Source of the DNA: Acidimicrobiia bacterium
GTDB lineage: Bacteria > Actinomycetota > Acidimicrobiia > Spongiisociales > Spongiisociaceae
Reading direction: 5' to 3'
DNA: 42,354 nucleotides
Assembly (NCBI GenBank): GCA_011523395.1
Contig: WTGW01000019.1
Coordinates: 1 to 42,354, forward strand
The notes below the pieces were generated by a model. It was given only the letters and a program-made list of their open reading frames with translations. It ran no database searches and had not been told where the DNA came from. A program made the translations under genes and the position numbers. Position 1 is the first letter of the stretch. Each line of letters opens with the position of its first letter. Shown here piece after piece: positions 9,112 to 42,225 of this stretch.

Positions 9112-9130
9112 GATATCGGGATCCGTAATT
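9112..9130. promoter_or_regulatory. Island operator site 1 (13-bp-spaced GATATC pair)
   Basis: GATATC (9112-9117), spacer GGGATCC, then degenerate GTAATT (9125-9130). Read on the minus strand, the spacer is GGATCCC, close to the island consensus GTAGCCC. It lies in the divergent gap between the AcnX operon (start 38 bases away) and racemase 2 (58 bases away). It is one of the weaker sites because only one half-site is perfect. Confidence 0.65.
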
Positions 9131-9188
9131 GGTTGATAGGCTCGGGCTCTCGAATCGGAGGGGCCGGACCGGTGACCGGAGGTACACG

Positions 9189-9914
9189 ATGGCGATCGTG
9201 AAGGGCGGCCGCACCGTCTACGGGCACGACATCGGGATCCTCATGCTCGACACGAGCTGTCCCAGGCCGGTGGGCGACGTGGGAAACGCCCTGACCTGGC
9301 CGTTCCCGGTGCTCTACAAGGTCGTGCAAGGCGCGGACACCAGCCGCATCATGGGCTCGGAACCGGATCCGACCCTGCTGGCTCCATTCATCGAGGGGGC
9401 TCAGGAGTTGGAGGCGATGGGTGTGCGGGCGATCACGACCAGTTGCGGGTTCCTGTCGGTCTTCCAGCAGGAGATGCAGGCCCGAGTCGGCGTTCCCATG
9501 CTCACCTCGGCGTTACTCCAGGTGCCCTTGGCGGCCCGGCTGGTAGGGCCGGGTCGCAAGGTGGGGATCCTCACCGAACGCCCGCACTTGACGGATCGCC
9601 ACTTCCTCGGGATGGGATGGTCGCCCGAGGAATACGACATCGTGGTCAGTTCGATGCCGGATGATGCGGTCTTCCCACAGGTTTACATCGACCAAGCCGT
9701 GGTTGCCGATGCCGGCGTCCTGGAGGCCGAACTGGTGGCGTTGGCGCGCCGCCAGGTGGACGAGCATCCGGAAGTGGGCGCCATAGTGCTCGAATGCACC
9801 AACTTCGTCCCTTGGGGAAAGGCCATGAGGCAAGCAACCGGACGGCCGATCTTCGACCTCTATTCCCTGGTCACCTCGGTCCATCAGTCCGTGGTGGGAA
9901 GGGGATCTCGGTAG
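9189..9914 (+). CDS. Asp/Glu racemase-superfamily protein, paralogue 2
   Basis: A 241-residue member of the same racemase subfamily as the genes at 6634 and 28107. It shares GGRTVYG at residue 6, LMLDTSCPRPVGDVGNA and TWPFPV, and has the catalytic pair Cys86 (TTSCGFL) and Cys203 (LECTNFVP). ATG 9189 has a strong GGAGG seven bases upstream. It is transcribed alone, divergently from the AcnX operon that holds paralogue 1, and both would be served by operator site 1. Its 3' end overlaps the converging MmgE/PrpD gene by 31 bases, leaving no room for a separate terminator. Differences in the segment between the two cysteines suggest a different substrate from paralogue 1. The exact reaction is unknown. 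Confidence 0.88.
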   Translation: MAIVKGGRTVYGHDIGILMLDTSCPRPVGDVGNALTWPFPVLYKVVQGADTSRIMGSEPDPTLLAPFIEGAQELEAMGVRAITTSCGFLSVFQQEMQARVGVPMLTSALLQVPLAARLVGPGRKVGILTERPHLTDRHFLGMGWSPEEYDIVVSSMPDDAVFPQVYIDQAVVADAGVLEAELVALARRQVDEHPEVGAIVLECTNFVPWGKAMRQATGRPIFDLYSLVTSVHQSVVGRGSR

Positions 9915-11299
9915 CGAGGTCTGAGCAAGGCCGTCAGACTGGATAGGTCATCGATATCATCGAGTCGGTCGATCGCGTCCACCAGACCGGCAACGGCATC
10001 ACTTCCGAGGACATCTGTTCCCCCGATGGAGAGCCAGTCGAGCCAATCGGCCGGATCGAAGGCGTGGTCGTGTCCCTCTGCTACCAGACGCCGTCCGTCG
10101 CTGGTGTCGACTTCCACCCGCGCGTAGCGGATGGGATGGCCCTTCTCGAGCACCACGCTGATGCGGCCGCACAGCTCTACCAGATCAGGGCGGGTGTAAT
10201 CGCTGACCAGGTCGGGGTCCAACCTCCCGGTCGCGAGGATGGTGGCGATGGCCAGCACCGACGAGCTGCGGGCCGCCACCTCGCTCCCGAAGGGCGGATG
10301 CATGTGACCGGTCACGAAGTGCTCCCGCTCCACTGGTAGGAACAGCGTCACGGAGCGGGTGTTCGCGGCAGCCACGGCGTGGTCGCGAACCAGCCTGGTC
10401 GTCAGCTCGATCGGCACGATGTTCAGCCCCGTACCGGGGTAGCGCTTGGTGGTGGCGTTCAGGATCTCGAAATCCGTGCCGAGGGTATCGAGCGAATCGT
10501 CCAGGGAGGCCGGTACTCCCGTGAAGAACGTGTTCCAGAACCCGAACCGCCCCTCCATCACCGCCAAAGCCGCTTGGCCGCCATGGTCGGCGGCCAGAGC
10601 CGCCATCAGGCCGTTACGGGCCACCAGGCTGTAGTAGTGGGTCACGAAATCACCCTCGCTGAGACCCATGCCCGAGTGCGCCGCGTAGCCGAGTGCGTGC
10701 GCGGTCCGGTGTTCTGACAGTCCGAGCAGCCGGGCCACGGCCGCGGCGCCCCCGAACGGTCCGAAGGGGATGGTCGGCCTCCTCGGCGCCCTGGCCGAAG
10801 CCATCGCGGCGGGGTTTCCCAGCTTGCCGATCACGTCGTAGGCCGCGATCAGGGCGGTGAGCAACTCCCGGCCTGAGCAATGCCGTTCCTCTGCGACCGC
10901 GAGCGCCGGAGGGAGGGTCACCAGGGCGGCGTGAACACCGGCGGGGAACAGTACGTCGTCGAGGAAGTCGGAGCGCATCAGAGTCGTGTTGGCGAAGGCC
11001 GCCTCCATCGGAGCCGTCCGGTTTCGCCTACCGATGATCGTGGCAGACCCCTCGTGGCCGAACGACTCGGCGATCCTGACCGCCTGCCGGCCCTCCCGAG
11101 TGCTCAGACCCCGCAGGGCGAGCCCGAGGTGATGAACGATGTGCTCCTTCATCTTGTCTACGGCCGGCCGGGGAATGGCCTCGTAGCGGAGCCCGACCAC
11201 ATGGGCGGCGAGCCGCTCGGTCTGGGTGGGGTAGGGCACCGGTGCGAAGTCGCGGCCTCTTCTCTCGGGTTGGCCTCGGCCCGGCGCGCCCGTCCCCAT
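9884..11299 (-). CDS. MmgE/PrpD-family protein, copy 1
   Basis: A 471-residue MmgE/PrpD enzyme, normal length. The family includes 2-methylcitrate dehydratase, cis-aconitate decarboxylase and iminodisuccinate epimerase, all acting on polycarboxylates. Visible family segments are HIVHHLGLAL near residue 55, FLDDVLFPAGVHAALV carrying the active-site-region His, ARLLGLSEHRTAHALGYAAHSG, and TKRYPGTGLNIVP with the conserved Lys. Both His and Lys are kept, so it is probably active. ATG 11299 has AGGTGG upstream; GTG 11311 is possible but abuts the operator. It diverges from the aminotransferase gene and converges on racemase 2 with a 31-base overlap. The substrate is not known. Confidence 0.88.
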   Translation of the reverse strand: MGTGAPGRGQPERRGRDFAPVPYPTQTERLAAHVVGLRYEAIPRPAVDKMKEHIVHHLGLALRGLSTREGRQAVRIAESFGHEGSATIIGRRNRTAPMEAAFANTTLMRSDFLDDVLFPAGVHAALVTLPPALAVAEERHCSGRELLTALIAAYDVIGKLGNPAAMASARAPRRPTIPFGPFGGAAAVARLLGLSEHRTAHALGYAAHSGMGLSEGDFVTHYYSLVARNGLMAALAADHGGQAALAVMEGRFGFWNTFFTGVPASLDDSLDTLGTDFEILNATTKRYPGTGLNIVPIELTTRLVRDHAVAAANTRSVTLFLPVEREHFVTGHMHPPFGSEVAARSSSVLAIATILATGRLDPDLVSDYTRPDLVELCGRISVVLEKGHPIRYARVEVDTSDGRRLVAEGHDHAFDPADWLDWLSIGGTDVLGSDAVAGLVDAIDRLDDIDDLSSLTALLRPRYRDPLPTTD

Positions 11300-11313
11300 C
11301 GCCCCTACCACCT

Positions 11314-11345
11314 GATCTCACATGTCGATATCGGGTCTCGATGCT
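11314..11345. promoter_or_regulatory. Island operator site 2 (three half-sites)
   Basis: GATCTC (11314-11319), GATATC (11327-11332) and GATGCT (11340-11345), each 13 bp from the next. The second spacer, GGGTCTC, is the reverse of a consensus-like GAGACCC. It fills the short divergent gap between MmgE/PrpD copy 1 (start 14 bases away) and the aminotransferase (30 bases away), so a bound protein would cover both promoters. Confidence 0.72.
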
Positions 11346-13915: not shown

Positions 13916-13934
13916 GGTAACGTATCCCGATATC
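13916..13934. promoter_or_regulatory. Island operator site 3
   Basis: GGTAAC (13916-13921), spacer GTATCCC, GATATC (13929-13934), 13-bp spacing, flanked by CGG on the right. It lies between acyl-CoA dehydrogenase (start 64 bases to the left) and the ThDP enzyme (start 29 bases to the right). Confidence 0.75.
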
Positions 13935-13963
13935 GGTTCGCGAGTTCAAGGAGACTTTCTCCG

Positions 13964-15700: not shown

Positions 15701-16798
15701 TCAGACCAGGGCGGCCACGTCGATCAGGCCCGGCCAGAGTAGCTCGGCGCCCTCGCTGCCGCAGCCGCTGCCTCCGCAGTCGCAATGGTGCACGTCTATT
15801 GCGTACTCGGGAACGAAATGCCGGCGAGCAGCCTCGATGGCTTGGTCCTCGGTCCAACCCCAGGTTTCCCACTGCGGCCGGGCCTCCTCGGCGATCTTCT
15901 CGGGGTCGCCCAGGTGCCAGTACATCGTGTAACGGTCCTGCACCCCCACCCCCATCGCCTCGGCAACCAGCGATATCCACTCGCGGATGGCCATCTTCTT
16001 GGTGGACAGCTTCGACCACTCCATCTGGCACTTGTGGTAGGGGGTGACGAGGGTGTCGGCACCGGCGGCCTCCAACTGGTCCTCCAGTTCCTTGATGGCG
16101 CCCTGGAAGGTCTCGGTATCGGCTTTGTTGAGGACGCCCACGGCCTTGGGGCCTTCGAGGTCGCACGGTGTTCCGGCGGACGGAGGCTCGACGAAACCGG
16201 CGAACTCGACACCCGGGACCATCTCGAAGATCCGCAGGATCGCGGCGGTGTCGATGTCGGCCTGCGCATGGTCGTGGTGGGCCTCCAATAGCACCCGCGT
16301 TCTCACGTCTCGCACCCACGGGACATCGTCGCCCCGCGCTTGGAGCAGATCGGCCAGGAACTTGGTGATATGCACCACCGCGAACGGAGGATCCTGCTGC
16401 GAGCTGATGGTGTCGAGGTACTGGCGCATGCACGCGCCGCACCACTGGACCGCCACCTTCGGACGGTACGACATGAAGCGCCGGTAGGACTTGCCGGATA
16501 TGCGGTCGGCGGCCGCACCGTCCTTGCCCATCTTCTCGAACGGACGGCCGCAACAGAATTGGCGGCCGGTGACCGCGAAGTAGTCAACGCCCAGCACATC
16601 GAGGACGTTGGCCGCCTCCTGCATGAGGTGTGGCGTGTGCTGCACAGCGCACCCGTAGGCGAGCAGGGCGTCGTAGGGACGGTCGGGCTCAACCCATCTT
16701 TCGGTCCACTTGAGGTCGTCGCGGGCGACTAGGAGCGACTTGCTCTCGGCCATGGCCGTGTAGTAGCCCTTTACGTCAAACTTCGTCTTGTCGATCAC
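15701..16798 (-). CDS. CCG-domain (HdrB-like) iron-sulfur protein 1
   Basis: A 365-residue protein with one complete cysteine-rich CCG domain as in heterodisulfide reductase subunit B: Cys50-x31-Cys82-Cys83-Gly, then Cys120-x2-Cys123. The second half is degenerate for CCG but keeps PCDLEGP, YHKCQMEWSKL and a C-terminal HHCDCGGSGCG, all echoed in the copy at 24416. It has no membrane segment and no ferredoxin-type cluster motif. CCG domains bind Fe-S clusters and take part in thiol/disulfide or electron-transfer chemistry, usually with partner subunits; none lies next to this gene. ATG 16798 faces operator site 4. It ends 27 bases from the converging ThDP gene. Its specific role in the pathway is unknown. 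Confidence 0.82.
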   Translation of the reverse strand: MIDKTKFDVKGYYTAMAESKSLLVARDDLKWTERWVEPDRPYDALLAYGCAVQHTPHLMQEAANVLDVLGVDYFAVTGRQFCCGRPFEKMGKDGAAADRISGKSYRRFMSYRPKVAVQWCGACMRQYLDTISSQQDPPFAVVHITKFLADLLQARGDDVPWVRDVRTRVLLEAHHDHAQADIDTAAILRIFEMVPGVEFAGFVEPPSAGTPCDLEGPKAVGVLNKADTETFQGAIKELEDQLEAAGADTLVTPYHKCQMEWSKLSTKKMAIREWISLVAEAMGVGVQDRYTMYWHLGDPEKIAEEARPQWETWGWTEDQAIEAARRHFVPEYAIDVHHCDCGGSGCGSEGAELLWPGLIDVAALV

Positions 16799-16835: not shown

Positions 16836-16854
16836 GATATCGGTATCCGATTTC
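16836..16854. promoter_or_regulatory. Island operator site 4
   Basis: GATATC (16836-16841), spacer GGTATCC, GATTTC (16849-16854). On the minus strand the spacer reads GGATACC, near consensus. It lies between CCG protein 1 (start 37 bases left) and the MFS gene (start 70 bases right). Confidence 0.72.
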
Positions 16855-18166: not shown

Positions 18167-18674
18167 TGGTCTGTGGTGGTCTGTCTGTGGAACGGCGGTG
18201 TGGTATGGCGCCGGCAGCGGCGTTCCTCGCAAGGCCAGCTGACGAAGGCGTGCCCGCAGCGGCACGTTGAGGAAGCGGAACGCAGCGACGGGACACCGAT
18301 GACCGCCACAGCACGCCTGGTTGTTTCGCATGGAGACCACAGTGGTCTGTCTGTGGAACGGCGGTGTGGTATGGCGCCGGCAGCGGCGTTCCTCGCAAGG
18401 CCAGCTGACGAAGGCGTGCCCGCAGCGGCACGTTGAGGAAGCGGAACGCAGCGACGGGACACCGATGACCGCCACAGCACGCCTGGTTGTTTCGCATGGA
18501 GACCACAGTGGTCTGTCTGTGGAACGGCGGTGTGGTATGGCGCCGGCAGCGGCGTTCCTCGCAAGGCCAGCTGACGAAGGCGTGCCCGCAGCGGCACGTT
18601 GAGGAAGCGGAACGCAGCGACGGGGCGCCGATGACCGCCAGACCACACCAAGCTGTTTCGCAGACAGACCACTA
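18164..18674. repeat. Three tandem 166-bp MITE-like repeat units
   Basis: Near-identical units begin at 18177, 18343 and 18509, a period of exactly 166 bp. The whole array is bounded by perfect 11-bp inverted repeats, TAGTGGTCTGT (18164-18174) and ACAGACCACTA (18664-18674). Each unit has a hairpin, GCGTGCC-loop CGCAGC-GGCACGT. The outer ends supply the stop codons of both converging genes: MFS TAG on plus, and 4-TM protein TAG on minus. A diverged fourth copy lies at 1638-1806. No transposase is present. Open frames across the array only mirror the repeat period and are not genes. Confidence 0.92.
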
Positions 18675-19085
18675 GAACCCGCCGAAGCGCATCAAGACCA
18701 TCATGGTGAAGATCACTGGGAATGCGGCAACGTAGACAGTCCTCAGGAAGGCGGGCGTGGGCACGCGGTTGAGGAGGAATACGAACATGAGTATCCCCAG
18801 TACCCCCGACAGGATGAAGATCCACCCGTACGAGGTGTTGAGTTGGTCGAGCACGCCGGTCATCAGCCCGCGCAGGATTCCCGTGACGACCGTCCCGCCC
18901 GCAGTGATCAACGTGATCTGGCGGGCCTTGGCAGTCAATAGCGAACCGCGAGCCGCCTCCGCCTGCTCCTTCGGGAGGGTGGCGAGGGCCGGAAACAAGG
19001 TGACCCGGGTGAAGGCGATCGAGCCCGCCCAGAAGATGCCGAAGGCCACGTGAAGCCAATGAACTACGAAGACGTCCCAAGCCAC
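18672..19085 (-). CDS. Four-helix membrane protein (CopD/DUF2269-like), paralogue 1
   Basis: A 137-residue integral membrane protein with four predicted helices. The first contains HWLHVAFGIFWAGS and is followed by FTRVTLFPAL; the last ends VIFTMMVLMRFGGF. The His-rich first helix and size recall CopD/HemJ-type haem or copper proteins, but I cannot name a family firmly. A clear paralogue lies at 28882-29307 with the same HWLHV start and FTMMVMMRFAG ending. GTG 19085 is preferred over GTG 19100 because GGGGAGG lies just upstream and the N-terminus then matches the paralogue. It is a single-gene unit downstream of operator site 5 and ends inside the repeat array. Confidence 0.75.
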   Translation of the reverse strand: MAWDVFVVHWLHVAFGIFWAGSIAFTRVTLFPALATLPKEQAEAARGSLLTAKARQITLITAGGTVVTGILRGLMTGVLDQLNTSYGWIFILSGVLGILMFVFLLNRVPTPAFLRTVYVAAFPVIFTMMVLMRFGGF

Positions 19086-19127: not shown

Positions 19128-19146
19128 GGTATCGTAGCCCGATATC
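19128..19146. promoter_or_regulatory. Island operator site 5
   Basis: GGTATC (19128-19133), spacer GTAGCCC, GATATC (19141-19146), flanked by CGG. It is a near-ideal match, 42 bases upstream of the 4-TM gene start. Confidence 0.78.
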
Positions 19147-19149
19147 GGC

Positions 19150-20330: not shown

Positions 20331-20705
20331 CTACCGGGATCGGGCGGGAACAGCCTCGTCCAGGACATCGGATACGAGCTCGCGGATCTTGGGGCGCAGG
20401 TCCTCCAGCGCCTGCTGTCCGCGATCTGTCAGCGAGTAGTACTTCCGCACCTTGCCGCCGACCACCTCGGGAGAGCGTTCGAGGAACCCGATCTCCTCCA
20501 GTCCGTGGAGGAGCGGATAGAGGGTTCCCGGCGACAGGTTGTAGCCGTGGGTCGCCAGCTCGTCGTTGAGTGCTACTCCGTACACGGGACCCCTGCTCGC
20601 ACAGTCGAGCACGTGCACCCTCACGAAGCCCAGCAGGATGTCGCGAAACAGCTTGCTGTGGCCTTCGAATGTGGGATGACCATCGATACGGTCGGTCTTA
20701 ATCAT
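20331..20705 (-). CDS. PadR-family transcriptional regulator
   Basis: A 124-residue winged-helix protein. The segment GPVYGVALNDELATHGYNLSPGTLYPLLHGLEEIGFLE is the classic PadR DNA-binding block (here described by its ends, residues about 40-76), followed by KVRKYYSLTDRGQQAL (the wing) and a short C-terminal helix for dimerisation. PadR proteins are usually repressors released by phenolic or other small ligands. ATG 20705 has AGGTG six bases upstream. It is the only transcription factor encoded in the window and heads a two-gene unit with the LLM oxidoreductase. It is a candidate, but no more, for the factor that binds the island operators; operator site 6 is 104 bases upstream of its start. 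Confidence 0.92.
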   Translation of the reverse strand: MIKTDRIDGHPTFEGHSKLFRDILLGFVRVHVLDCASRGPVYGVALNDELATHGYNLSPGTLYPLLHGLEEIGFLERSPEVVGGKVRKYYSLTDRGQQALEDLRPKIRELVSDVLDEAVPARSR

Positions 20706-20809: not shown

Positions 20810-20828
20810 GGTATCGTAGCCCGATATT
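20810..20828. promoter_or_regulatory. Island operator site 6
   Basis: GGTATC (20810-20815), spacer GTAGCCC, GATATT (20823-20828). It is in the divergent gap between padR (start 104 bases left) and the chromate-family transporter (29 bases right). The spacer matches the consensus exactly. Confidence 0.75.
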
Positions 20829-20857: not shown

Positions 20858-22105
20858 GTGACGGACGATAGCAAGCCGAGCAACCAGGACGCGGGAGCCG
20901 GATCCGGAACCTTCAACCCCGAGCGGGGATCGGTAATCGAGATATTCTGGGTCGCCCTACGCCTCGGGTTGACGTCCTTCGGCGGTCCCATCGCCCACAT
21001 AGGTTACTTCCAGGACGAGTACGTCCAGCGGCGCCGGTGGGTGGACGAGGAAACCTTCGCCGATCTCGTCGCCCTGTCACAAGCCTTCCCAGGGGCGGGA
21101 AGCAGCAAGCTCGGCATGGCGATCGGCATGGCGCGCGGTGGGTTGTGGGGCGGTTTCGCGGCTTGGCTCGGGTTCACCCTTCCTTCGGCGGTGATCATGA
21201 CCGTGCTCGGCCTGACGGCTTCCCAGATCACCGAGCAAGCGGCCGGATGGATACACGGGCTGGTCGTGGTGGCGGTACCGGTGGTCGGCCTCGCGGTGTG
21301 GAAGCTGTGGCGGCAGCTGGCCCCGGACCGGTTCCGCAGCTCGATCGCGGTCCTGGCCACGCTGGCGGTGATCGCCTTCCCCTCGTCGGCCCGCACCACC
21401 ATCGTTATCGTGATCATCCTGGGAGGGATCGTGGGCTGGTTCTTCCTGCGCCGGGAGGCCGCCGCTCCCCGCTCGTACCAACTCGGGTCCGGACGCCGGG
21501 CTGCGGTGATCAGCGCGGTCCTCTTCTTCGCCCTGCTGGCTCTGCTGCCGGTGGCACGGGCCGCCTTCGATGACCAAGCCATCGCGACGGCCGACGCCTT
21601 CTACGGTTCCGGAGCGCTGGTGTTCGGCGGAGGCCCGGTGGTGCTGCCGCTTCTCGAGAGCGAAGTGGTCGGGCCCGGCTGGGTCGACGAGGACACCTTC
21701 ATCGCCGGCTTCGGCGCGGCTCAGGCGGTGCCGGGGCCGATCTTCACTTTCTCGGCCTATCTCGGGGCTTCCCTGGGGACAGCGCCGAACGGGGTCGGGG
21801 GCGCGCTGCTCGCTCTCCTGGCCATCTTCCTGCCCTCCTTCCTGATCGTGGTGGCGACGCTCCCGTCGTTCGGCGCGCTCCGCGCCCGGGCCGAGGTACA
21901 GGCGGTGCTACGTGGGGTCAACGCCGCCGTGGTGGGGATCCTGCTAGCCGCCCTCTACGACCCTCTCTGGTCGAGCGCCATCCTCACCCCGCAGGACTTC
22001 GGGCTGGCCCTGGTCGCGCTGGGCCTCCTGGCGTTCTGGAAACTCCCTCCATGGCTGGTGGTGATTCTGACCGCGGCCGGCGGTGGCCTACTCGCGACCT
22101 TCTGA
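20858..22105 (+). CDS. chrA: Chromate-family (CHR) transporter, full length
   Basis: A 415-residue two-domain CHR transporter with about ten membrane helices. Each half carries the family's signature: LTSFGGPIAHIGYFQDEYV and SQAFPGAGSSKLGMAIG in the first, ALVFGGGPVVLPLLESEVV and AQAVPGPIFTFSAYLG in the second. Known members export chromate, but many relatives have unknown anion substrates, and here a sulfonate or carboxylate is equally possible. GTG 20858 is preferred because AGGGGA lies six bases upstream and it clears the operator; ATG 20837 is the alternative. The TGA overlaps the next ATG (TGATG), coupling it to the FhuF-like reductase. It is the first gene of a three-gene unit ending with CCG protein 2. 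Confidence 0.88.
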   Translation: MTDDSKPSNQDAGAGSGTFNPERGSVIEIFWVALRLGLTSFGGPIAHIGYFQDEYVQRRRWVDEETFADLVALSQAFPGAGSSKLGMAIGMARGGLWGGFAAWLGFTLPSAVIMTVLGLTASQITEQAAGWIHGLVVVAVPVVGLAVWKLWRQLAPDRFRSSIAVLATLAVIAFPSSARTTIVIVIILGGIVGWFFLRREAAAPRSYQLGSGRRAAVISAVLFFALLALLPVARAAFDDQAIATADAFYGSGALVFGGGPVVLPLLESEVVGPGWVDEDTFIAGFGAAQAVPGPIFTFSAYLGASLGTAPNGVGGALLALLAIFLPSFLIVVATLPSFGALRARAEVQAVLRGVNAAVVGILLAALYDPLWSSAILTPQDFGLALVALGLLAFWKLPPWLVVILTAAGGGLLATF

Positions 22106-23145: not shown

Positions 23146-24366
23146 ATGGCGGTTGACGACCGGATGGTCACGAAGAACGCGGCCGGCGAGGACTTCGACC
23201 TCTCAAGGGCGAGCGAGTTCAGCTTCACCCAGTTCTATCGGGATCACCTCTACTCGGAACGCCTCCAGATCTCGCGTGACGAGATGACATGGCTGGAGCG
23301 TTACGCGAAGCCGGACCAGCCTGCGGAGGTGGTGCTCAACTTGAGCTGCGGTGTGCAGAACACCCCCCACCTGATGCTCACCCAGGTCGCTCTATTCGAA
23401 GCCCTGGGGGTCGACTTCGTGGCGACAGCCGGCAACAAGTACTGCTGCGGCCGACCGTTCCAACGTTTCGGTAAGGGTGCGGTGGGTGACAACATGGCAG
23501 CGCGCGCCATCGACCGGTTCGCCTCGTGGCAGCCCGAGGTCAACGTTCAGTGCTGCGGATCATGCTTGATCGAGTTCAACTACCACGTGCGGGTGGTCGC
23601 AGAGGAGCGGGGTGAGGCACCCTTCGAGGTGATCCACATAACCGACTACCTGGTCGACCGGCTGATCGAGATGGGCGATGACGTTCCGTGGCGCAAGTCG
23701 ATTCCCCGGCGGGTGATGGTGCACGCGGAAGGCGCCGAGGTCCATCCCACCAAGGAGGCAGCCAAGTCGGCGACCATCAGAACTCTCGAGTTGATCCCAG
23801 GGATCGAGTACGTGGGCATCGTGGAGAGCCCTGCTCTCGGCCAGCCCTGCGCGACCAAGGGCCCGGGAGAACCCAGCGTCCTCAACGACATCACCCCCGA
23901 GCAGTACCTGGAGGTCTGCCAGGACCTCCAGGACCAGGCGGACTCGGTGGGAGCGGACGCCATCGTGACCCATCACCACATGTGCCACCGCGAGTGGTGC
24001 AAGTTCGGGACCAACCGCCTGCCGGTCCTGCACTACCAGTCGTTGCTCGCCGAAGCACTGGGGATCAGGATTCCCGATCGGTTCCAGACCCTCTGGAAGC
24101 TCGGGGATCCCGAGAAGGTGCTTGAACAGACCCGCCGCCACTGGGAGTCATGGGGGATGGATGAGAAGGACGCCCGCCACGTCGTGAAGCATCACTTCAT
24201 GCCCGAGTACGCGTCACAGGTGCAGCGGTGTCCCTGCGAGGGGAACTGCGCCGAGGCCGTCACCGGTACCGGCGCCGCCGCGGCTGCCCTCGGCGCGGAC
24301 TGCGGTACGTCCTGGACGGCCACCCTCGAGGCCGGTATGGAACTCCCCGTCCTCGACCTCGTCTGA
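23146..24366 (+). CDS. CCG-domain (HdrB-like) iron-sulfur protein 2
   Basis: A 406-residue paralogue of the proteins at 15701 and 24416. The CCG domain is complete: Cys68-x31-Cys100-Cys101-Gly, then Cys137-x2-Cys140 (with an extra Cys136). In the second half the shared YHxCQ..WSK motif becomes HHMCHREWCKF, and the C-terminal CGGSGCG motif becomes RCPCEGNC with a longer tail containing a further Cys. It is therefore the most diverged copy. ATG 23146 has GAAGGA nine bases upstream. It follows the FhuF-like gene by 33 bases in the same unit, so it may pass electrons to or from that [2Fe-2S] protein. No flavin or quinone-binding partner is encoded beside it. Confidence 0.8.
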   Translation: MAVDDRMVTKNAAGEDFDLSRASEFSFTQFYRDHLYSERLQISRDEMTWLERYAKPDQPAEVVLNLSCGVQNTPHLMLTQVALFEALGVDFVATAGNKYCCGRPFQRFGKGAVGDNMAARAIDRFASWQPEVNVQCCGSCLIEFNYHVRVVAEERGEAPFEVIHITDYLVDRLIEMGDDVPWRKSIPRRVMVHAEGAEVHPTKEAAKSATIRTLELIPGIEYVGIVESPALGQPCATKGPGEPSVLNDITPEQYLEVCQDLQDQADSVGADAIVTHHHMCHREWCKFGTNRLPVLHYQSLLAEALGIRIPDRFQTLWKLGDPEKVLEQTRRHWESWGMDEKDARHVVKHHFMPEYASQVQRCPCEGNCAEAVTGTGAAAAALGADCGTSWTATLEAGMELPVLDLV

Positions 24367-24415: not shown

Positions 24416-25558
24416 CTAGGACGGTTGGCGCACCTCGGTTATACCGGGCCAGACCAACTCGGGAGAGGGCGCGCCGCAGCCGGAGCCGCCGCACTCGCAG
24501 TCGTGGATGCTCTCCGAGAAAGCCGCTGTGAAGTGGGTGCGAGCGTGGTCGTAGGCATCCTCACGGCTGATCCCCCACGAGTCCCAAGCCGGGTGGGCCG
24601 CCTCCACTATGGCATCGGGGTCGGCCAGCCGCCAGTAGTTCTGGTAGCGGTCCTCGACGCCCACGCCGAGCGCGTCGGCTAGGACGGACATCCAGTGCCG
24701 CACGCCCAGCCTGTGGCTGGCCAGCTTGGACCACTGCTTCTGGCAGGCGTGATACGGCGTGACGACGATCTCCGCCCCGGTTTGTCGGGCCTGCTTAGTA
24801 AGACCCGCCAGGATCGCCCGATGGGAGTCGGAACTGATGTCGCCCAAGCCCACGAACCGGCCGTTGACCTTCTTGAGATCGCAGGGAGCACCCGTCGGGG
24901 GCGGTTCGACGACCCCCAGGTTCTCGATACCCGGGATGCAGGACAGGATCTCGTCGACCGCGTCGATAGTGGCGTTGCCGACCAGCTGGCGGCCGGGCCG
25001 GCCGCCATGTCCGGAGGCCCGGTCGTTGAGGACCTTGGGCTGGTCGTGGCGGTGGACCAGGACGGGTAGCCGATCCGTGTTCTTCCAAGGGATGTCGCCT
25101 GCTCGCTCTCGCAGCAGGCGGGCCATGTACGTGGAGACGTGGATCACCTCGAACGGCGTGGTCATGCGCCGGCTGGCCACGTCGATGTAGGTGATCATGC
25201 ATGCCCCGCACCACTGCACCATCGTCTGCGGTCGGTAGGAGGCGAAGCGCGCATAGGAGGTCGCCACGATGCTGTCGGCCGCCCTCACCTTGCCGGTTCG
25301 CTGTAGCGGACGGCCGCAGCAGAACTGGCGTCCGACCACCGCTTGGTGCTCGATTCCCAGCACCTCGAAGACCTTCACGGCGGCGCGCATCAGATGAGGC
25401 GTGTGCTGGACGGCGCATCCGAACGCCAGCAACGTGTCCACCGGAGCATCGGGCGCCCGGTGGCGATCCACCCAGGCCACCTCGTCCCTGGCCACCTGCA
25501 TGGCCAGGCTGTTCATCATGCCGCCGTAGAACTCCTTGGGGGAGAACCCGGACCCCAT
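24416..25558 (-). CDS. CCG-domain (HdrB-like) iron-sulfur protein 3
   Basis: A 380-residue paralogue closest to CCG protein 1. The CCG domain runs Cys48-x31-Cys80-Cys81-Gly to Cys117-x2-Cys120. The second half has APCDLKK, YHACQKQWSKL and the C-terminal HDCECGGSGCG motif. Relative to copy 1 it carries a short Gly/Arg-rich insertion (SGHGGRPGRQ) near residue 190. ATG 25558 has GGAGGG four bases upstream; an in-frame extension to 25654 would cross the operator and was discarded. It is a single-gene unit divergent from the DadA-like oxidoreductase, which is the best local candidate for an electron-donating partner. It converges on CCG protein 2 with a 49-base gap. Confidence 0.82.
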   Translation of the reverse strand: MGSGFSPKEFYGGMMNSLAMQVARDEVAWVDRHRAPDAPVDTLLAFGCAVQHTPHLMRAAVKVFEVLGIEHQAVVGRQFCCGRPLQRTGKVRAADSIVATSYARFASYRPQTMVQWCGACMITYIDVASRRMTTPFEVIHVSTYMARLLRERAGDIPWKNTDRLPVLVHRHDQPKVLNDRASGHGGRPGRQLVGNATIDAVDEILSCIPGIENLGVVEPPPTGAPCDLKKVNGRFVGLGDISSDSHRAILAGLTKQARQTGAEIVVTPYHACQKQWSKLASHRLGVRHWMSVLADALGVGVEDRYQNYWRLADPDAIVEAAHPAWDSWGISREDAYDHARTHFTAAFSESIHDCECGGSGCGAPSPELVWPGITEVRQPS

Positions 25559-25610: not shown

Positions 25611-25629
25611 GATATCGCATCCCAATATC
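25611..25629. promoter_or_regulatory. Island operator site 7
   Basis: GATATC (25611-25616), spacer GCATCCC, AATATC (25624-25629). It lies between CCG protein 3 (start 52 bases left) and the DadA-like gene. Its right edge abuts the GGAGG ribosome site of the latter, 12 bases from its ATG. Confidence 0.75.
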
Positions 25630-28881: not shown

Positions 28882-29307
28882 TCACCATCCGAAGAGTCCG
28901 GCGAACCTCATCATGACCATCATGGTGAACATGACCGGGAAGGCCCAGACGTACATGATGTTCAGGACCGGCCTGTCGTAGAGAGGGCCGACCAGGTAGA
29001 CCACCATCAGGATTCCGAGGATTCCCGCGGTCAGGTAGAGCTGCCCGTAGAGGCTCCCCAGATCGTCCAGCGCTCCGTCGATGAATCCCCGGACCCATCC
29101 GAGCGTGACCGTTCCGATCGCTGCGGTGTAGGTGATCTTGGTGCCGTGTCCCGCCTTCATGGCGCCACGTACCTCCTCGAGGGACTCGGGCCCCAGCCTG
29201 CGCAGCGCAGGAAAGAGGCTCACGCGCGAGAACAGGATCGCCCCGAACCAGTAGATGGCCAGGAACACGTGAAGCCAGTGAACGATGAACAGTTCCGGTC
29301 GATCCAT
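28882..29307 (-). CDS. Four-helix membrane protein (CopD/DUF2269-like), paralogue 2
   Basis: A 141-residue integral membrane protein with four helices, paralogous to 18672-19085. Shared features are IVHWLHVFLAIYWFGA, FSRVSLFPAL, the central AAIGTVTLGWVRG helix, and the end FTMMVMMRFAGLFGW. The paired His residues in helix 1 could bind haem or a metal, as in CopD/HemJ-type proteins; this is by resemblance only. ATG 29307 has AGGAG six bases upstream. It is second in the operon after MmgE/PrpD copy 2 and before racemase 3. Keeping two diverged copies under the same operator family suggests a working role in the pathway, perhaps as an electron-transfer or membrane-anchor subunit. Confidence 0.77.
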   Translation of the reverse strand: MDRPELFIVHWLHVFLAIYWFGAILFSRVSLFPALRRLGPESLEEVRGAMKAGHGTKITYTAAIGTVTLGWVRGFIDGALDDLGSLYGQLYLTAGILGILMVVYLVGPLYDRPVLNIMYVWAFPVMFTMMVMMRFAGLFGW

Positions 29308-30742: not shown

Positions 30743-30774
30743 GATCTCGGTAACCGATATCGTAGTCCGATGTC
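30743..30774. promoter_or_regulatory. Island operator site 8 (three half-sites, overlaps a start codon)
   Basis: GATCTC (30743-30748), GATATC (30756-30761) and GATGTC (30769-30774), each 13 bp apart, with spacer GTAGTCC before the last. It fills the 51-bp gap between divergent MmgE/PrpD genes. The last half-site covers ATG 30770 of the fused protein, so that gene has either a leaderless message or a start at ATG 30776. Confidence 0.75.
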
Positions 30775-33508
30775 GATGTCGACTATCGATGGGGGAACCG
30801 ATGAAGACCGGGCTCCCCTGACCCGCCGGCTGGCCGAACACGTCTCCGGCCTCGCGTTCGAGACGATCCCATCGGAGATCGTCGGGTTGGCCAAGGACCA
30901 CCTCGTCCACCATGTCGGTCTGGCCCTCGCTGCCGTGGACTACCCGCGTCCCCGGCGAGCCCGCGCGGTGGCTCGCAGGCTTTCCGGTCAGGGAGGGCGG
31001 CACCGCATTCTCGGAACACCCGGCCGGTACGGCCTGCTGGATGCAGTCTTCGCCAACTCCCTCCTCATGGGTGCGGACGCGCTCGACGACGCGGCTCTCG
31101 GTGGCACCCATCCGGGGGTGCTCGTATTCCCCACGGCCCTGGCCTTGCCGGAAACCAGGACCGTCAGCGGCCGGGACCTTCTGGCCGCGGTGGTGGCCGG
31201 CTACGACGTCCTGGTCGCGACCGCGCGCGGTGGCTGGACCTGGGGGGTGAGTACGCCGCGCCGGTCCGGTTGCGTGGTGGGTCCGCTCGGCGTGGCGGCG
31301 GTGGCGTCCCGCCTGCTGGGCCTCGGACCGCGCAGATCCGCGCACGCGCTGGGGCTGGCCGCCAACGGCGCGGTCGGCCTCATCGAGGGAACTCCCTTCG
31401 CCGGCATCCTGTATCCCCATGTGACCCGGAACGGCGTCATGGCGACCTTGCTGGCCGCGGACGGACACCGTTCCACTCCGAGCGTGCTGGACGGCCCGTA
31501 CGGGCTGTACGAGACCTACCTCGGGGCCGTCCCCGGAGAGGTGGTCGCAGCCATGGACACGTTGGGGAGCGACTACGGGCTCGCGCACGCGTTCCGCAAG
31601 CGTTACGCGTGCAGTGGCTTCAACGTGGTGCCCGTGGAGCTGATGGACGACCTGGTCCGCACCACGGGGGTGACCGTGGAGAACGTGGCCTCGATCCGGC
31701 TCGCCCTTCCCGAGGAACGGCGGCCCCGCGAGGAGGACTTCGACCGGAACTTCCGCCGCTACCGGGACGACGGCGCACGCCGGTACATCACCCGCTACGC
31801 GTCTCCCCGTTTCCTGGTGGACGCCTGGTTGTGGGACGGCCGGCTGAACCCGGCCCGTTACCGCGAGGACATGCCGGCGGGCTTCGTGGACCTGCTCGCC
31901 CGGACATCAATGGACTTCGTGGAGGGGCTGCCCCTGCGCTCGGCCCGCCTCACGGTTGTAACCACCGACGGCCAGGAGCACGTCCGGGAGGGTCATGACC
32001 CGTCCCCTACCCCGCCCATGGACTACCGGTTGTGGTTGGCCGACATCCTTCCGGCAGCCCCTCCGTCCGCGATCGAGGGCTTCGTCACCTCGGTCGAGCG
32101 GCTCGAGGAGTCCCGCGATGCCTCCGAGCTGTGGACAGCGCTCGACCGGTTCGCCGACCGGCCTGATACGACACCGGCGATCTCTCCGGGTCTCGATCGG
32201 GAACCCGGCTCGACCGCGTCCCGGCGGATCGCCTCTTACGTGACCGGAGCCAGGTACGAGGACTTCCCTCCGGCGGTGCTCGAACGGGGCAAGGATCTGC
32301 TCGTCCACCACCTTGCGTTGGCATTGGCGGACCGGCCGCCCAAAGGCGCCTGCCCGGGTGGGCCACCGGGCAACTACTCGGCCATAGGCCGGCTGCCTTC
32401 TCTCCGCCTGCTCGACGCGGTGTTCACCAACTCGCTGAGCATGCAGCCACGAGGCCGGCAGGAGAGCATGGCCGGGGGGATGCGCCCGGGGGCGCTGATC
32501 ATGCCTGCTGCTCTGGCGCTCACCGAGGACCGGGCGGTTACAGGGAAGGAGCTCCTGGTGGCGATCGCGGTGGGGTACGACGCCGGCCTGGCGCTGTCCG
32601 CCCGAACATGGGCTTGGGGCGCCGCAACAGCCCGCCGGGCCGACTGCGTGTTCGGTCCCGTGGCCGTGGCCTGCACGGCGGCCCGCCTGCTCGGGCTCGA
32701 CGAGGAGCGGACGGCGGACGCCATCGGGCAGGCTTGCCACCTGACCATGGGGTTGATCGAAGGCGTCGAGGAAGAGGAGCTCGTCAACGCGCAGTTGGCC
32801 CGCAACGGCGTTTACGCCGCCATCCTCGCCGAGGCGGGATTCCAAGCGGCCGATCTGATGATCGAGGGTGAGTTCGGGTTGTACAGGTCGACCCTCGGTG
32901 CGGTTCCAACGGTTCTCGATGAGTCGCTCTCGGCACTGGGAACCAGGTTCGGGCTGGAACAGACCGTCGTCAGCCGCCATGACCTCGATCCCAACCATTT
33001 CGTCCCGATGGAGCTGGCCTCCCGGCTAGCCGCCCGTCTGGGCGCCGCCGAGGAGCCGGTTGGGGTCGAGGTCGTGCTACCTGAGAGCCGTAAACGCTGG
33101 GACCGAGTCGCCCGCACCTGCATCCGGGGGTCCGATCGCCAACTGTCCGAAGCCGCGGCCCTGCGCCGCGCGCTTGCGAGGGTGTTGGCTGGAGTTATTT
33201 CCGGCGGAGAGCGGCACGGGGCCAGGAAGGGCCCGGAACCGGACGGCGTCGTGCTCCGCTACGAGCCGGTAAGGGATCCATGGTTCGCCCGGGTCACGGT
33301 TACCACGGCTTCGGGCCGCACCGAGCGGCTAGAGGGCGACCGCTCCGTCCTCCTGCCCCACCTCCCGGACAGGAGGGCGTCGTTGCTAGATTCGGTGGGC
33401 GGCGTTAACAGCAGCAAGGTCGACGAGGTGCTCCGTCTGGTCGGGACACTCGAGACGGTGGGAGACGCCTCGACGCTCCTGGAAGTGATGGCGGATCTGT
33501 GCGGATAG
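30770..33508 (+). CDS. Tandem MmgE/PrpD fusion with degenerate second domain
   Basis: A 912-residue protein made of two complete MmgE/PrpD domains (about residues 10-450 and 475-905), double the family length. Domain 1 keeps the motif residues: His114 in GGTHPG and Lys277 in RKRYACSGFN. Domain 2 is more like MmgE/PrpD copy 2, but the matching sites read GGMRPG (Arg572) and VSRHDLDPNH (Ser735), and about a dozen residues are missing near residue 535. Domain 2 is therefore probably non-catalytic, perhaps replacing the second subunit of the family's usual dimer. ATG 30770 lies within operator site 8; ATG 30776 is equally possible. It is first of a four-gene operon with an opine-dehydrogenase-family enzyme, a MOSC protein and a small membrane protein. 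Confidence 0.88.
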   Translation: MSMSTIDGGTDEDRAPLTRRLAEHVSGLAFETIPSEIVGLAKDHLVHHVGLALAAVDYPRPRRARAVARRLSGQGGRHRILGTPGRYGLLDAVFANSLLMGADALDDAALGGTHPGVLVFPTALALPETRTVSGRDLLAAVVAGYDVLVATARGGWTWGVSTPRRSGCVVGPLGVAAVASRLLGLGPRRSAHALGLAANGAVGLIEGTPFAGILYPHVTRNGVMATLLAADGHRSTPSVLDGPYGLYETYLGAVPGEVVAAMDTLGSDYGLAHAFRKRYACSGFNVVPVELMDDLVRTTGVTVENVASIRLALPEERRPREEDFDRNFRRYRDDGARRYITRYASPRFLVDAWLWDGRLNPARYREDMPAGFVDLLARTSMDFVEGLPLRSARLTVVTTDGQEHVREGHDPSPTPPMDYRLWLADILPAAPPSAIEGFVTSVERLEESRDASELWTALDRFADRPDTTPAISPGLDREPGSTASRRIASYVTGARYEDFPPAVLERGKDLLVHHLALALADRPPKGACPGGPPGNYSAIGRLPSLRLLDAVFTNSLSMQPRGRQESMAGGMRPGALIMPAALALTEDRAVTGKELLVAIAVGYDAGLALSARTWAWGAATARRADCVFGPVAVACTAARLLGLDEERTADAIGQACHLTMGLIEGVEEEELVNAQLARNGVYAAILAEAGFQAADLMIEGEFGLYRSTLGAVPTVLDESLSALGTRFGLEQTVVSRHDLDPNHFVPMELASRLAARLGAAEEPVGVEVVLPESRKRWDRVARTCIRGSDRQLSEAAALRRALARVLAGVISGGERHGARKGPEPDGVVLRYEPVRDPWFARVTVTTASGRTERLEGDRSVLLPHLPDRRASLLDSVGGVNSSKVDEVLRLVGTLETVGDASTLLEVMADLCG

Positions 33509-34569
33509 CGATTCTCGGGGCGGGCAACGGTGGGCAGTCCACCGCCGCGCGCTGCGGTCGGGCCGGTCATTCCGTGAGGCTGTACGACCGTTTCCCCGAG
33601 GTTGTGGAGCCGCTTGCCTCCTTGGGCGAGATCCGGACGGGCGGAGCGGTGGAGGAGACCGGTCCCATCGAGCTGGCCACCACCGACATGTCCCGAGCCG
33701 TCTCGGGCGCCGACCTGATACTCGTGTCGGTCCCCGGCTTCGCCCACCGCTACATCGCGTCGGAACTCGCCGGGGTGCTGCAAGGTGATGAGACGGTAGT
33801 CCTCCATCCGGGTGGTTTCGGAGGAGCTCTCGAGGTCCGGAAAATCTGGTCGGACCTCGGAGTGCCGGCCGGTGTCCGGCTGGGAGAGACCAACACCCTG
33901 GCCTATGCCTGCCGGGTCGTCGAGCCCGGAACGGTCCATATCGGCGGGGTCAAGGGGGCCTTTTCCGTGGCGGCCCTCGGAGCCTCGAGGACACCCGAAG
34001 TGGTCCAGGCGCTCAGGCCCGTCTTCCCAAACGTCGAGGCGGCGACCTCGGTACTGGAAACCAGCTTCGACAACATGAACCCGGTGGCCCATCCGGTTGT
34101 CGCGGTGCTCAACGCCGGGCCGATGGACGGCGGCGACTTCGACTTCTACGCCGACGGGCTGACCCCCTCGGTGGTTCGGGCCATGGAGGCCCTGGATGCC
34201 GAGAGGATGGAGGTCGCGGGCGCACTGGGGATTCCCTTCCGGAGCCATCCCGCCTGGCTGGAGCGCTCCTACGGTATCGTCGGATCCGACACGATGGATA
34301 CGGAGCGGCAGCTGGCCTCCAACGTGATGCGGGGCATCGGCGTCCCGGGAGGGATGCACGGACGGTACCTAACCGAGGACGTGCCACTCGGCCTGGTGCC
34401 AATGGCCCGGATAGCCCGGCTGGCGGGAGTGCGCACTCCCGTGATCGATGCGGTCATCACCCTCGCGGGTGCGGCTACCGGGAGGGACTACCGCAGCGAG
34501 GGCCGCTCCCTCGAGGACATGGGCATCGATAACCTGACCCCCGAGCAGATCTTGGAGGCAATAGCGTGA
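33499..34569 (+). CDS. NAD/NADP octopine/nopaline dehydrogenase-family enzyme
   Basis: A 356-residue two-domain dehydrogenase of the opine dehydrogenase family. The Rossmann motif is AILGAGNGGQ (residues 4-13), with Asp30 (LYD) suited to binding the ribose of NAD(H). The C-terminal domain has NPVAHP with the likely catalytic His198, LNAGPMDGGDF, and the helix EALDAERMEVAGALG. Family members form or split opines, in which an amino acid and a 2-oxo acid share a secondary amine. In a catabolic setting, oxidative cleavage is the likely direction, but reduction of an imine or a keto acid is possible. GTG 33499 overlaps the fused gene by 10 bases, and its stop overlaps the MOSC gene's GTG. ABC uptake genes nearby fit an opine-like substrate. 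Confidence 0.87.
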   Translation: MRIAILGAGNGGQSTAARCGRAGHSVRLYDRFPEVVEPLASLGEIRTGGAVEETGPIELATTDMSRAVSGADLILVSVPGFAHRYIASELAGVLQGDETVVLHPGGFGGALEVRKIWSDLGVPAGVRLGETNTLAYACRVVEPGTVHIGGVKGAFSVAALGASRTPEVVQALRPVFPNVEAATSVLETSFDNMNPVAHPVVAVLNAGPMDGGDFDFYADGLTPSVVRAMEALDAERMEVAGALGIPFRSHPAWLERSYGIVGSDTMDTERQLASNVMRGIGVPGGMHGRYLTEDVPLGLVPMARIARLAGVRTPVIDAVITLAGAATGRDYRSEGRSLEDMGIDNLTPEQILEAIA

Positions 34570-35210
34570 GCCGGCTGAGCGAGGTTTCACCGCCGAAGCC
34601 GACTCCCTCCACATCGCGCCTGGTTCCTGTCGGGCTGATCTCGCTTCTCCAGATCCAGAAGGACAAGCTCATCGGCGACACCCCGGACGGCCAGGTCTAC
34701 AGAACCACATCACTCGTCGCGGTGGGAGAACTGAAGGTGGCCCGGGCCGGCGTCATCGCCGAGGTCGATGGTGGTTGGGTTCTCGACCGGCATCACACGG
34801 CGCATCCCGCCGAGACGCGAGCACATCGCTCCGATCGGATCCTGAGCATCGGATTCAGCAGGCACTACAAGCTGATCGAGGACGAGTTCGGGTGGGCGCC
34901 CCCAGGTGTGGCAGGGGAGAACATCATCGTCGACACGGCGGATCGGTTGCACCACCAGGATGTGGCCGGTGGGTTCGTGATCCGCACTTCCGGTGGCGAT
35001 GTGGAACTGGACCCCCCCGATGTGCTCGACTCGTGCGTACCTTTCAGCAAGTTCCTGCTCAGAGATAAGGGGACACCGGTTCGCCGGGTGGTACAGGCTC
35101 GGAAGTTCCTCGGGGCCGGCATGCGGGGATACTCCATGGGCGCGAGCCGGATCCCGGAGTATGCGGCGGTGCGGACCGGGGATCTAGTACTTAGAAACGT
35201 CGGATCATGA
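34566..35210 (+). CDS. MOSC-domain protein
   Basis: A 214-residue stand-alone MOSC protein (C-terminal domain of molybdenum cofactor sulfurase). Recognisable parts are RILSIGFSRHYKLIEDEF, APPGVAGENIIVDT near residue 112, GGFVIRT, and DSCVPFSKFLL with the conserved Cys that can carry sulfur. Stand-alone MOSC proteins move sulfur or reduce N-hydroxylated compounds; the last would suit an amine-processing pathway, but no Moco-binding partner is nearby. GTG 34566 overlaps the preceding stop (GTGA). It is third in the operon of the fused MmgE/PrpD protein. The exact role is not known. Confidence 0.83.
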   Translation: MSRLSEVSPPKPTPSTSRLVPVGLISLLQIQKDKLIGDTPDGQVYRTTSLVAVGELKVARAGVIAEVDGGWVLDRHHTAHPAETRAHRSDRILSIGFSRHYKLIEDEFGWAPPGVAGENIIVDTADRLHHQDVAGGFVIRTSGGDVELDPPDVLDSCVPFSKFLLRDKGTPVRRVVQARKFLGAGMRGYSMGASRIPEYAAVRTGDLVLRNVGS

Positions 35211-35241: not shown

Positions 35242-35427
35242 ATGTTGAAGCTGGTCAAGTGGATAGCGCTGGTGCCGATGGGATTGGGGATCGTACTGCT
35301 CTTCTTCGCTCTCATCTGGCGCACCTGGGGACAGGCGGTCTTCGGTAGCGGGCTGATCCTCGCGGCCGCGCTGTGGATAGCCGTGTTCGCACGAGCCGAA
35401 CGCCGGCGCCAGCCGCTTCCCTTCTAG
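35242..35427 (+). CDS. Small two-helix membrane protein, unknown function
   Basis: A 61-residue protein with two hydrophobic helices (about residues 4-25 and 31-50) and a basic tail (ERRRQPLPF), likely in the cytoplasmic membrane with its C-terminus inside. It is supported as a real gene by GGAGG six bases before ATG 35242, by a 31-base gap from the MOSC gene on the same strand, and by the strong hairpin terminator that follows. I recognise no family. It could be a membrane anchor or assembly factor for the operon's enzymes. Confidence 0.65.
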   Translation: MLKLVKWIALVPMGLGIVLLFFALIWRTWGQAVFGSGLILAAALWIAVFARAERRRQPLPF

Positions 35428-37803: not shown

Positions 37804-37835
37804 GATATCAAGTCCCGATAACGCTTCACGATATC
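37804..37835. promoter_or_regulatory. Island operator site 9 (three half-sites)
   Basis: GATATC (37804-37809), GATAAC (37817-37822) and GATATC (37830-37835), all 13 bp apart; the first spacer is AAGTCCC. It is in the 204-bp gap between the ABC ATPase gene (stop 37929) and the binding-protein start 37724. No other feature was seen in that gap. Confidence 0.75.
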
Positions 37836-38984: not shown

Positions 38985-40018
38985 GACCCTCGCCCTTCGA
39001 CCGAGACCGCCGTATCTTGATCGCGGAATAGATGGCAGACCACCTCGCGGCCGGGCGCAGTCGTCCAGGTCTCGGGTTCTTCGACGGCGCACAAGCCCTC
39101 GATGGCCTCCGAGCAGCGGGGATGGAAGCTGCACCCGCTCGGGCGGTCGAACGGATGGGGTACGGATCCGGTGATGGCGGGCAGCTTGGCCTTGGGCGCC
39201 GCGTCCAGGGCCGGGATGGAACGCAACAGGGCTCGGGTGTATGGATGCTGGGGGTCGTAGAAGATGTTCTCCACGGAACCCTGCTCTACGTCGCGGCCCA
39301 GGTACATCACCACCACGTCGTCGGCCGTCTCGGCGATGACGCCGAGGTCGTGCGTGATCAGCATTACCGCCATCGACCGTTCCTCCTGCAGGGACATCAT
39401 GAGATCGAGTATCTGGGCCTGGGTGGTCACATCGAGCGCGGTGGTGGGCTCGTCCGCGATCAGCAGCCTGGGATCGGGCGCCAGCGCGTGGGCGATCATG
39501 GCCCTCTGGCGAAGGCCGCCGGAGAGTTCCCAGCTGTACTGGTCCAGGGTGGCGGCGGGACGGGGGATTCCCACCATCGTGAGAAGGTCCGCTGCCCTCT
39601 CCCTGGCCTCCGCCTTGTTGAGCCTCTCGTGGAGGCGTATCGCCTCCGTCAACTGGTTGCCGATGGTGTGGACCGGGCTGAACGATGTCATCGGTTCCTG
39701 GAAGACGAGCCCGATCTCGCCTCCCCGCACCGAACGCATGTACTTTCCGTTGGGCCGCCGCTTCACGAGGTCGACGGGGGTCCCGTCGTTCCGGGTAAGG
39801 AGGATCTCGCCGTCGACGATCCGGCCGGGGTCATCCACTATCCGCAGGATCGACAGCGCGGTGACGCTCTTGCCACACCCGCTCTCTCCGACTATTCCCA
39901 GCGTCCGGCCCGCCGACACGTCGAAGCTCACCCCGTCGACCGCTTTGGTGACCCCCTCGTCGGCGATGAAGTAGGTCTTCAGGTTCCGCACGGAGAGCAG
40001 CGGGCGGTCGGTTCGCAC
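38981..40018 (-). CDS. Oligopeptide-type ABC transporter ATPase (OppD/DppD-like)
   Basis: A 345-residue ABC ATPase. Walker A is [10 protein letters not shown], the Q-loop segment is [17 protein letters not shown], the signature is [15 protein letters not shown], Walker B is [12 protein letters not shown], and the C-terminal extension has [16 protein letters not shown]. The signature reads LSGGLRQR where most have LSGGMRQR, a minor change. GTG 40018 is preferred because a clean GGAGG sits five bases upstream and it begins one base after the permease stop; ATG 40030 or GTG 40054 would lie further inside the permease gene. It pairs with the OppF-like protein to form the nucleotide-binding dimer. 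Confidence 0.93.
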
Positions 40019-40019
40019 G

Positions 40020-41186: not shown

Positions 41187-42162
41187 GCCGGATCCTGGGA
41201 TCGAGCCACATCAGGGCCAGGTCGGACAGGAACACTCCGAGCACCGTGAACGCGCCCAGCAGGAGGATGATTGCTCCTGCCAGGTACATGTCCTGGCTCA
41301 GCAACGAACTGAGCAGCACGGGACCCATGGTGGGAAGGCTCAGCACCACCGAAACGATCACGGCGCCGGAGACGATATTCGGGAACAGGAGGCCCACCGA
41401 GCTGGCCACCGGGTTCATGGCCACCCGCACCGGATACTTGCCGATCGCCCTACGGTTGGACAGGCCCTTCGCCCGGGCGGTGGTGACGTAGGGCTGGCGC
41501 TTCTCGTCCAGGAGGTTGGCCCGGGTGATGCGGATCAGCTGGGCAGCTCCTGCCGTTCCCAGGACGATCGCCGGGATCGGGAGGTGAACCAGCATGTCAC
41601 CGAGTTTGGCGAGGCTCCACGGCGCGGTGGCGTACTCGACCGAGAACAACCCCGCCAGCGAGACGTCGAGCCAGAGGAACCCGGCGTACAGCATCACCAA
41701 TGCCAGGAGGAAGTTGGGTGTTGCCAGGCCGAGGAAGCCCAGGAAGGTGGCGACATGGTCACCGACCGAGTATTGCCGCACAGCCGAGTAGATCCCGATG
41801 GGGATAGCGATCAACAGGGTGAAGACGAGCGCCGATATCGACACCAGCATGCTGAGCGGCAGGCGGTCGCCGATCACCTCGACAACCGGTTTCTGGTGGA
41901 AGAACGATGTGCCGAGGTCTCCCTGCAGAACCCGGCCCATCCAGATGCCGTACTGGACCACGATATGACGATCCAGCCCGTACTCCGCCCGGAGCTGGGC
42001 CGCGAACTCGTCCGCTGTCTCGGTCCCGCTCTCCGCCAGTTCCGCCAAGGCGGTTGACACGAAGTCGCCCGGCGGGAGCTGGATGATCGCGAACGAGATG
42101 ATCGAGATGACGAACAGGGTCAGTATCCCGAGGGCGGCTCTCCGCAGGATGTAAGCCCACAT
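41173..42162 (-). CDS. Oligopeptide-type ABC transporter permease (DppB-like)
   Basis: A 329-residue DppB-type permease. It starts MWAYILRRAALGILTLFVIS, has QYGIWMGRVLQGDLGTSF near residue 70, six membrane helices, and the EAA loop YVTTARAKGLSNRRAIGKYP near residue 225. ATG 42162 has GGAGGG five bases upstream. It is the first gene of the transporter operon DppB, DppC, OppD and OppF, all on the minus strand with overlaps or a one-base gap. Operator site 10 lies 44 bases upstream of the start, so the transporter should be co-regulated with the catabolic genes and with its separately promoted binding protein. Confidence 0.94.
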   Translation of the reverse strand: MWAYILRRAALGILTLFVISIISFAIIQLPPGDFVSTALAELAESGTETADEFAAQLRAEYGLDRHIVVQYGIWMGRVLQGDLGTSFFHQKPVVEVIGDRLPLSMLVSISALVFTLLIAIPIGIYSAVRQYSVGDHVATFLGFLGLATPNFLLALVMLYAGFLWLDVSLAGLFSVEYATAPWSLAKLGDMLVHLPIPAIVLGTAGAAQLIRITRANLLDEKRQPYVTTARAKGLSNRRAIGKYPVRVAMNPVASSVGLLFPNIVSGAVIVSVVLSLPTMGPVLLSSLLSQDMYLAGAIILLLGAFTVLGVFLSDLALMWLDPRIRHGNL

Positions 42163-42206
42163 AGCTACCCTCCTCTGCTGCCTCTTCGGTGGCGACGTTG
42201 GATGGC

Positions 42207-42225
42207 GATATCGTAGCCCGATACC
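42207..42225. promoter_or_regulatory. Island operator site 10
   Basis: GATATC (42207-42212), spacer GTAGCCC, GATACC (42220-42225), 13-bp spacing. It is 44 bases upstream of the DppB-like start and is the last operator before the right-hand heptamer array. Confidence 0.77.

Follow-up and report, generated by a model that had tools for sequence, protein, structure and literature searches.

A family of paired GATATC sites, probable operators of a PadR-type repressor, in a putative catabolic island of an Acidimicrobiia bacterium

Which protein reads the paired GATATC sites that recur between the genes of contig WTGW01000019.1, and what does it do there? The contig (42,354 nt; C29 in our numbering) belongs to an Acidimicrobiia bacterium of the family Spongiisociaceae (assembly GCA_011523395.1; 3.11 Mb in 239 contigs) and was analysed whole; it is termed the window below. 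An earlier note on this DNA had proposed one dedicated regulator for the genes next to the sites, which is also the explanation best supported by the sequence; the candidate, overlooked by the note, is a PadR-family protein encoded in the window itself (padR, 20331-20705, minus strand). Probably, the sites are operators of this protein, which would act as an autoregulated repressor of a single catabolic island with about 21 transcription units.

All ten sites listed by the earlier note (9112, 11314, 13916, 16836, 19128, 20810, 25611, 30743, 37804 and 42207) are present, and the midpoints of all ten are intergenic despite a coding content of 92.8%. The 17 transcription-unit starts that it had placed within about 105 bp of a site were measured at 8-104 bp; gene models came from a simple gene-calling script supplemented by reading, so start codons are approximate. 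The pattern GATATC-N7-GATATC with at most one mismatch occurs at nine places in the window, compared with none or one for every other spacer from 0 to 19, and in 60 first-order Markov simulations the spacer-7 pair turned up 0.08 times on average and never more than once. These nine places account for seven of the ten sites; at 9099/9112, 13916 and 20810 the best pair has two mismatches. The pair at 9112 exists as noted, but the best pair there starts at 9099. With a weight matrix, no match of at least 11 bits was found in the window before 6649, in agreement with the lack of sites noted for the units before 3.4 kb; the match at 6649 itself (16.7 bits) falls inside coding sequence.

The spacing of 13 bp between half-sites was described correctly, but the element is not always a pair: three or more boxes at 13-bp pitch are found at 9099/9112, 11314, 13916, 30743/30756 and 37804/37817, and the outer boxes of such sites are frequently degenerate. 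Similarly, the claim that the spacer is as conserved as the half-sites holds for the flanking G and C (GATATCG-N5-CGATATC), and less so for the remainder. Because GATATC is its own reverse complement, the pair is at once a direct and an inverted repeat. A fixed orientation along the chromosome, first suggested by clearly asymmetric sites, was dropped: in leave-one-out scoring 4 of 14 pairs scored higher in reverse, so the operator is near-symmetric and has no fixed direction.

The sites are placed as follows, with flanking genes of the minus and plus strand marked (-) and (+). Operator 1 (9099-9130; three boxes from the pairs at 9099 and 9112; conserved in the relatives G001, G006 and G010) lies between the aconitase X (AcnX) operon (-) and a racemase-like gene (+), operator 2 (11314-11345) between a PrpD-like gene (-) and an aminotransferase gene (+), and operator 3 (13916-13947) between genes for an acyl-CoA dehydrogenase (-) and a thiamine-diphosphate enzyme (ThDP) (+). 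Operator 4 (16836-16854) separates a CCG-domain gene (-) from an MFS transporter gene (+); operator 5 (19128-19146) serves a membrane-protein-like gene without a Pfam match (-); operator 6 (20810-20828) stands between padR with a luciferase-like gene (-) and a chromate-transporter-family gene followed by FhuF-like and CCG genes (+). Operator 7 (25611-25629) lies between a CCG-domain gene (-) and a DAO oxidoreductase gene (+), and operator 8 (30743-30774; three boxes and a weak fourth) between a PrpD-like operon (-) and genes for a double PrpD and an opine-dehydrogenase-like protein (+). Operator 9 (37804-37835; three boxes) precedes the gene for a solute-binding protein (SBP) (-), and operator 10 (42207-42225) an oligopeptide-type ABC transporter operon (-).

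The sites are confined rather than spread over the genome. A scan of all 3.11 Mb (at most one mismatch) returned 13 places, 11 of them in the island: nine in the window, and C224:507 and C224:6708, the remaining two being C150:5418 and C226:41949; the reversed control pattern returned none genome-wide. The cluster described by the earlier note therefore stands, but not its extent, since the island runs on into contig C224 with these two further sites. In the related genomes G006 and G001 the counterparts of the window and C224 sites stand in succession; repeats at the junction (a heptamer at the window's end, and repeat matches where C224 starts) probably broke the assembly. The heptamer (CAGTGGT in one phase) is present in 7-8 copies at the contig end (42300-42354) and again bordering the island on the left (3349-3400). 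Elsewhere in the genome, 185,256 bp in 19 stretches contained a single match of at least 15 bits, at C150:5418, and none was present in the final 44.3 kb of C224. The pair at C226:41949 is situated within long open frames. The site at C150:5418-5436 (locus L011) is a perfect pair, but it was rejected as part of the regulon, given that a HicA toxin gene lies directly downstream and that G003, although without a padR match, shares the identical core. It is probably the operator of a toxin-antitoxin pair and unrelated to padR.

G001, G006 and G010 also have the island, each with counterparts of all 12 sites; the lowest-scoring one in G010 reaches about 16 bits. Compared with G010, 284 of 332 box positions and 819 of 1408 other intergenic bases are identical; both figures are lowered by the poor alignment of the 19128 region. 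Bins of the kind of G006 and G010 are presumably of sponge origin. Among the 15 genomes of the family that were searched, a close full-length PadR was found in the genome under study and in these three relatives, and only distant PadRs in G012 and G014; no padR match was found in 8 of the 15.

Within the window, PadR is the sole DNA-binding family recognized by Pfam among 39 proteins, and the start of padR lies 104 bp from the site at 20810. The match to PF03551 (E 4e-18; 65.6 bits, gathering cut-off 27) places the protein in the PadR family. A predicted structure of the 124-residue protein (mean pLDDT 71.8, built on three sequences only; four other models reached 50-55) has helices at residues 18-37, 43-52 and 59-71, a wing at 75-92 and one helix at 94-118. 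Size and predicted fold agree with PadR subfamily 2, described as about 110 residues with a winged helix and a single C-terminal helix (PMC3506622).

Evidence for this candidate also comes from its pairing with the boxes in other genomes, where the earlier note had suggested looking for a regulator gene near matches. In a class search (296 genomes), six of the seven next-closest PadRs that were inspected (39-47% identity) had two overlapping motif matches near padR. A profile search of 396 genomes of the phylum Actinomycetota brought matches (E <= 1e-14) from 41 of them; of the 42 matches listed, 30 had loci, one of which was the window's own, and the other 29 were pooled with the seven class loci. 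Of these 36 related loci, 20 have a spacer-7 pair within 500 bp upstream of padR at up to one mismatch and 23 at up to two, compared with 0-1 and 0-5 loci, respectively, for control spacers of 3-12; none of 20 distant padR loci has such a pair. The 23 positive loci are spread over 13 families, and their usual form is three boxes at 13-bp pitch. Presence of the pair varies with the recognition helix (classes assigned by reading): SPG[TK] or SSGT, 19 of 24; SYGT, 4 of 8; VGT, 0 of 4; others, 0 of 20. In 22 loci with a triple (up to four mismatches), the consensus is [GA]ATATC-G-N5-C-GATATC-G-N5-C-GATAT[CT]; the boxes were preselected in this set, the flanking bases were not, and G is found in 20 and 18 and C in 21 and 18 of the 22 loci. 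A chromate-transporter-family gene is located nearby in 11 of the 36 loci; in three related loci a VOC-like gene, named from reading, stands ahead of padR. The operator family is real, and the candidate regulator is supported by independent genomes.

No clear sign of large regulons was seen in other genomes. A loose pattern gave 0 to 25 places per genome in 30 genomes, among the matches listed. In eight padR-bearing genomes, among those with most places, GATATCG-N5-CGATATC (up to one mismatch) occurs at 22 places, 10 at padR (one or two per genome) and 12 scattered, compared with 8 for a spacer one base longer; elsewhere, therefore, the operator mostly marks padR itself.

How the sites would act is suggested by promoter predictions. 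A -10 element is predicted inside a box for the ThDP unit (TTGACA-18-TAACGT, box 1 of operator 3), the SBP unit (TTGACA-18-TATCGT, operator 9) and the PrpD34 unit (TTGAAC-17-TATCGT); for the MFS gene the site starts 10 bp past the start of the -10, and for the SDR unit the -35 lies inside the site. Together with the precedent of the PadR family, the -10 elements in boxes favour repression by blocking of polymerase. We infer a mechanism in which the window PadR would recognize the sites as its operators, one dimer reading two GATATC(G) boxes that start 13 bp from each other; at three-box sites two dimers would overlap on the common middle box. Once bound, PadR would cover flanking promoters, on one side or on both, at their -10 or start region. 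In this way it would repress 17 transcription units in the window and 4 on C224, about 21 in all and its own gene included, within a catabolic and transport island of roughly 50 kb, until a ligand, perhaps an island substrate or intermediate, releases it.

The same protein might instead activate from these sites, or bridge island promoters as an architectural protein. Either role would be compatible with single sites midway between divergent genes and with 12 sites spread over about 50 kb, and for the ABC4, Fd and E1a units the promoter is predicted at a distance from the site or upstream of it; however, the sites are only 8-104 bp from start codons, several predicted -10 elements are inside a box, and the PadR proteins described in the accessible part of PMC3506622 are repressors, which makes this alternative unlikely. 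Less probable still, and in our view quite improbable, is a different DNA-binding protein, encoded elsewhere in the genome, for which padR would be merely one target: the genome was read in part and binding by PadR is itself deduced, but the boxes accompany one PadR clade in 13 families, vary with its recognition helix and are absent from the distant loci. GATATC is the recognition sequence of EcoRV and GATATCGT includes a -10-like TATCGT, but a general promoter element, restriction/modification motif or dispersed repeat is hardly credible given the fixed 7-bp spacer, the confinement of 11 of 13 places to the island and the differing flanks; that the sites might simply be promoter elements had been raised in the earlier note, and a box that overlaps a promoter can serve as its -10 as well.

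Several observations weigh against repression by PadR as the general explanation. Promoter predictions are weak for many units, and 13 of the 36 related loci, including G304 of the class set, have no pair within 500 bp upstream; some of these have matches farther away (L095 just past 500 bp, L119 near the start of chrA). The eight family genomes without padR hold 1-8 scattered pairs each, so single pairs can arise by chance. In G013, padR is split into two overlapping pieces that lie in different frames (C66, about 63509-63881; L130), yet a reduced island persists next to them, with some of its genes and two counterparts of the sites; a sequence error or a recent loss might account for the split.

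PadR proteins of this family (subfamily 2, Rv3488-like) are already known. Rv3488 binds its own promoter and metals. It is the best solved relative of the window PadR (5zhc, 5zhv, 5zi8, 7wh4; sequence E 1.5e-18) and also the best fold match (42% identity over 98 columns), and its NCBIfam model (NF053635) is the best match of the window protein, which at 91.5 bits falls short of the equivalog cut-off of 140. A second comparison is ChrI of Bacillus cereus SJ1, a PadR-like regulator encoded beside chrA1, both of which respond to chromate; padR genes beside chrA were noted in further genera (PMC2936356). Likewise, the window padR adjoins a PF02417 gene (20858-22105, plus strand) across the site at 20810; the likeness is one of gene neighbourhood, and in contrast to ChrI the window site family spans a catabolic island. 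The canonical PadR operators (LmrR, PadR) are given in PMC3506622 as an ATGT/ACAT inverted repeat with an 8-10 bp spacer. The window sites share with them an inverted repeat at or near the promoter and an expected winged-helix dimer as reader, but the window box is palindromic by itself and is repeated at 13-bp pitch, often three times; the best ATGT-N8-10-ACAT near each of the ten sites has 2-3 mismatches in 8 positions, and a canonical operator was rejected. No account of this operator form was found in the open-access literature (most subscription journals lay outside the search), which matches the earlier note's statement that it knew of no regulator with a paired GATATC site.

The genes under the sites comprise, at 3430-9073 on the minus strand, three Ldh_2 genes, an Asp/Glu racemase-like gene and the swivel and large subunits of aconitase X, and at 9189-42162, on both strands, further enzymes and transporters. 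The aconitase X is of the cis-3-hydroxyproline-dehydratase type, and the PrpD-like proteins are closest to cis-aconitate decarboxylase and IDS epimerase; further matches include a benzoylformate-decarboxylase-like enzyme and, on C224, a hydantoinase/allantoinase-like enzyme. This content suggests the breakdown of organic or amino acids; naming a single substrate was dropped, as the enzyme matches do not converge on one compound. Three proteins of 365-406 residues (15701-16798, 23146-24366 and 24416-25558) have a cysteine-rich CCG domain as sole Pfam match, and a single open frame (30797-33508) carries two successive MmgE/PrpD N-terminal domains. Five of the 39 window proteins had no Pfam match (915-1640, 18672-19085, 28882-29307, 34566-35210 and 35242-35427). 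A 166-bp unit is repeated in about 2.9 tandem copies (97% matches; 18176-18662) in the gap that separates the MFS gene from the minus-strand gene after it.

A wider reading, held tentatively and at somewhat less than even odds, joins these observations: an Rv3488-related PadR clade, widespread in Actinomycetota, would use an undescribed operator in which overlapping dimers read three CGATATCG-type boxes at 13-bp pitch; in one lineage of sponge symbionts this circuit of padR and a chromate-family transporter would have taken over a catabolic island of about 50 kb, with an operator at nearly every promoter; and the island would switch as one ligand-controlled unit, the transporter carrying not chromate but an organic anion from the pathway. 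If the operator assignment is true, a PadR clade present in at least 13 families of one phylum gains a defined operator, which can be tested at once in the Rv3488-like group. A switch of one or two genes would have been extended to about 20 transcription units, and the genes of the island would be tied into one regulon, making the question of its pathway testable.

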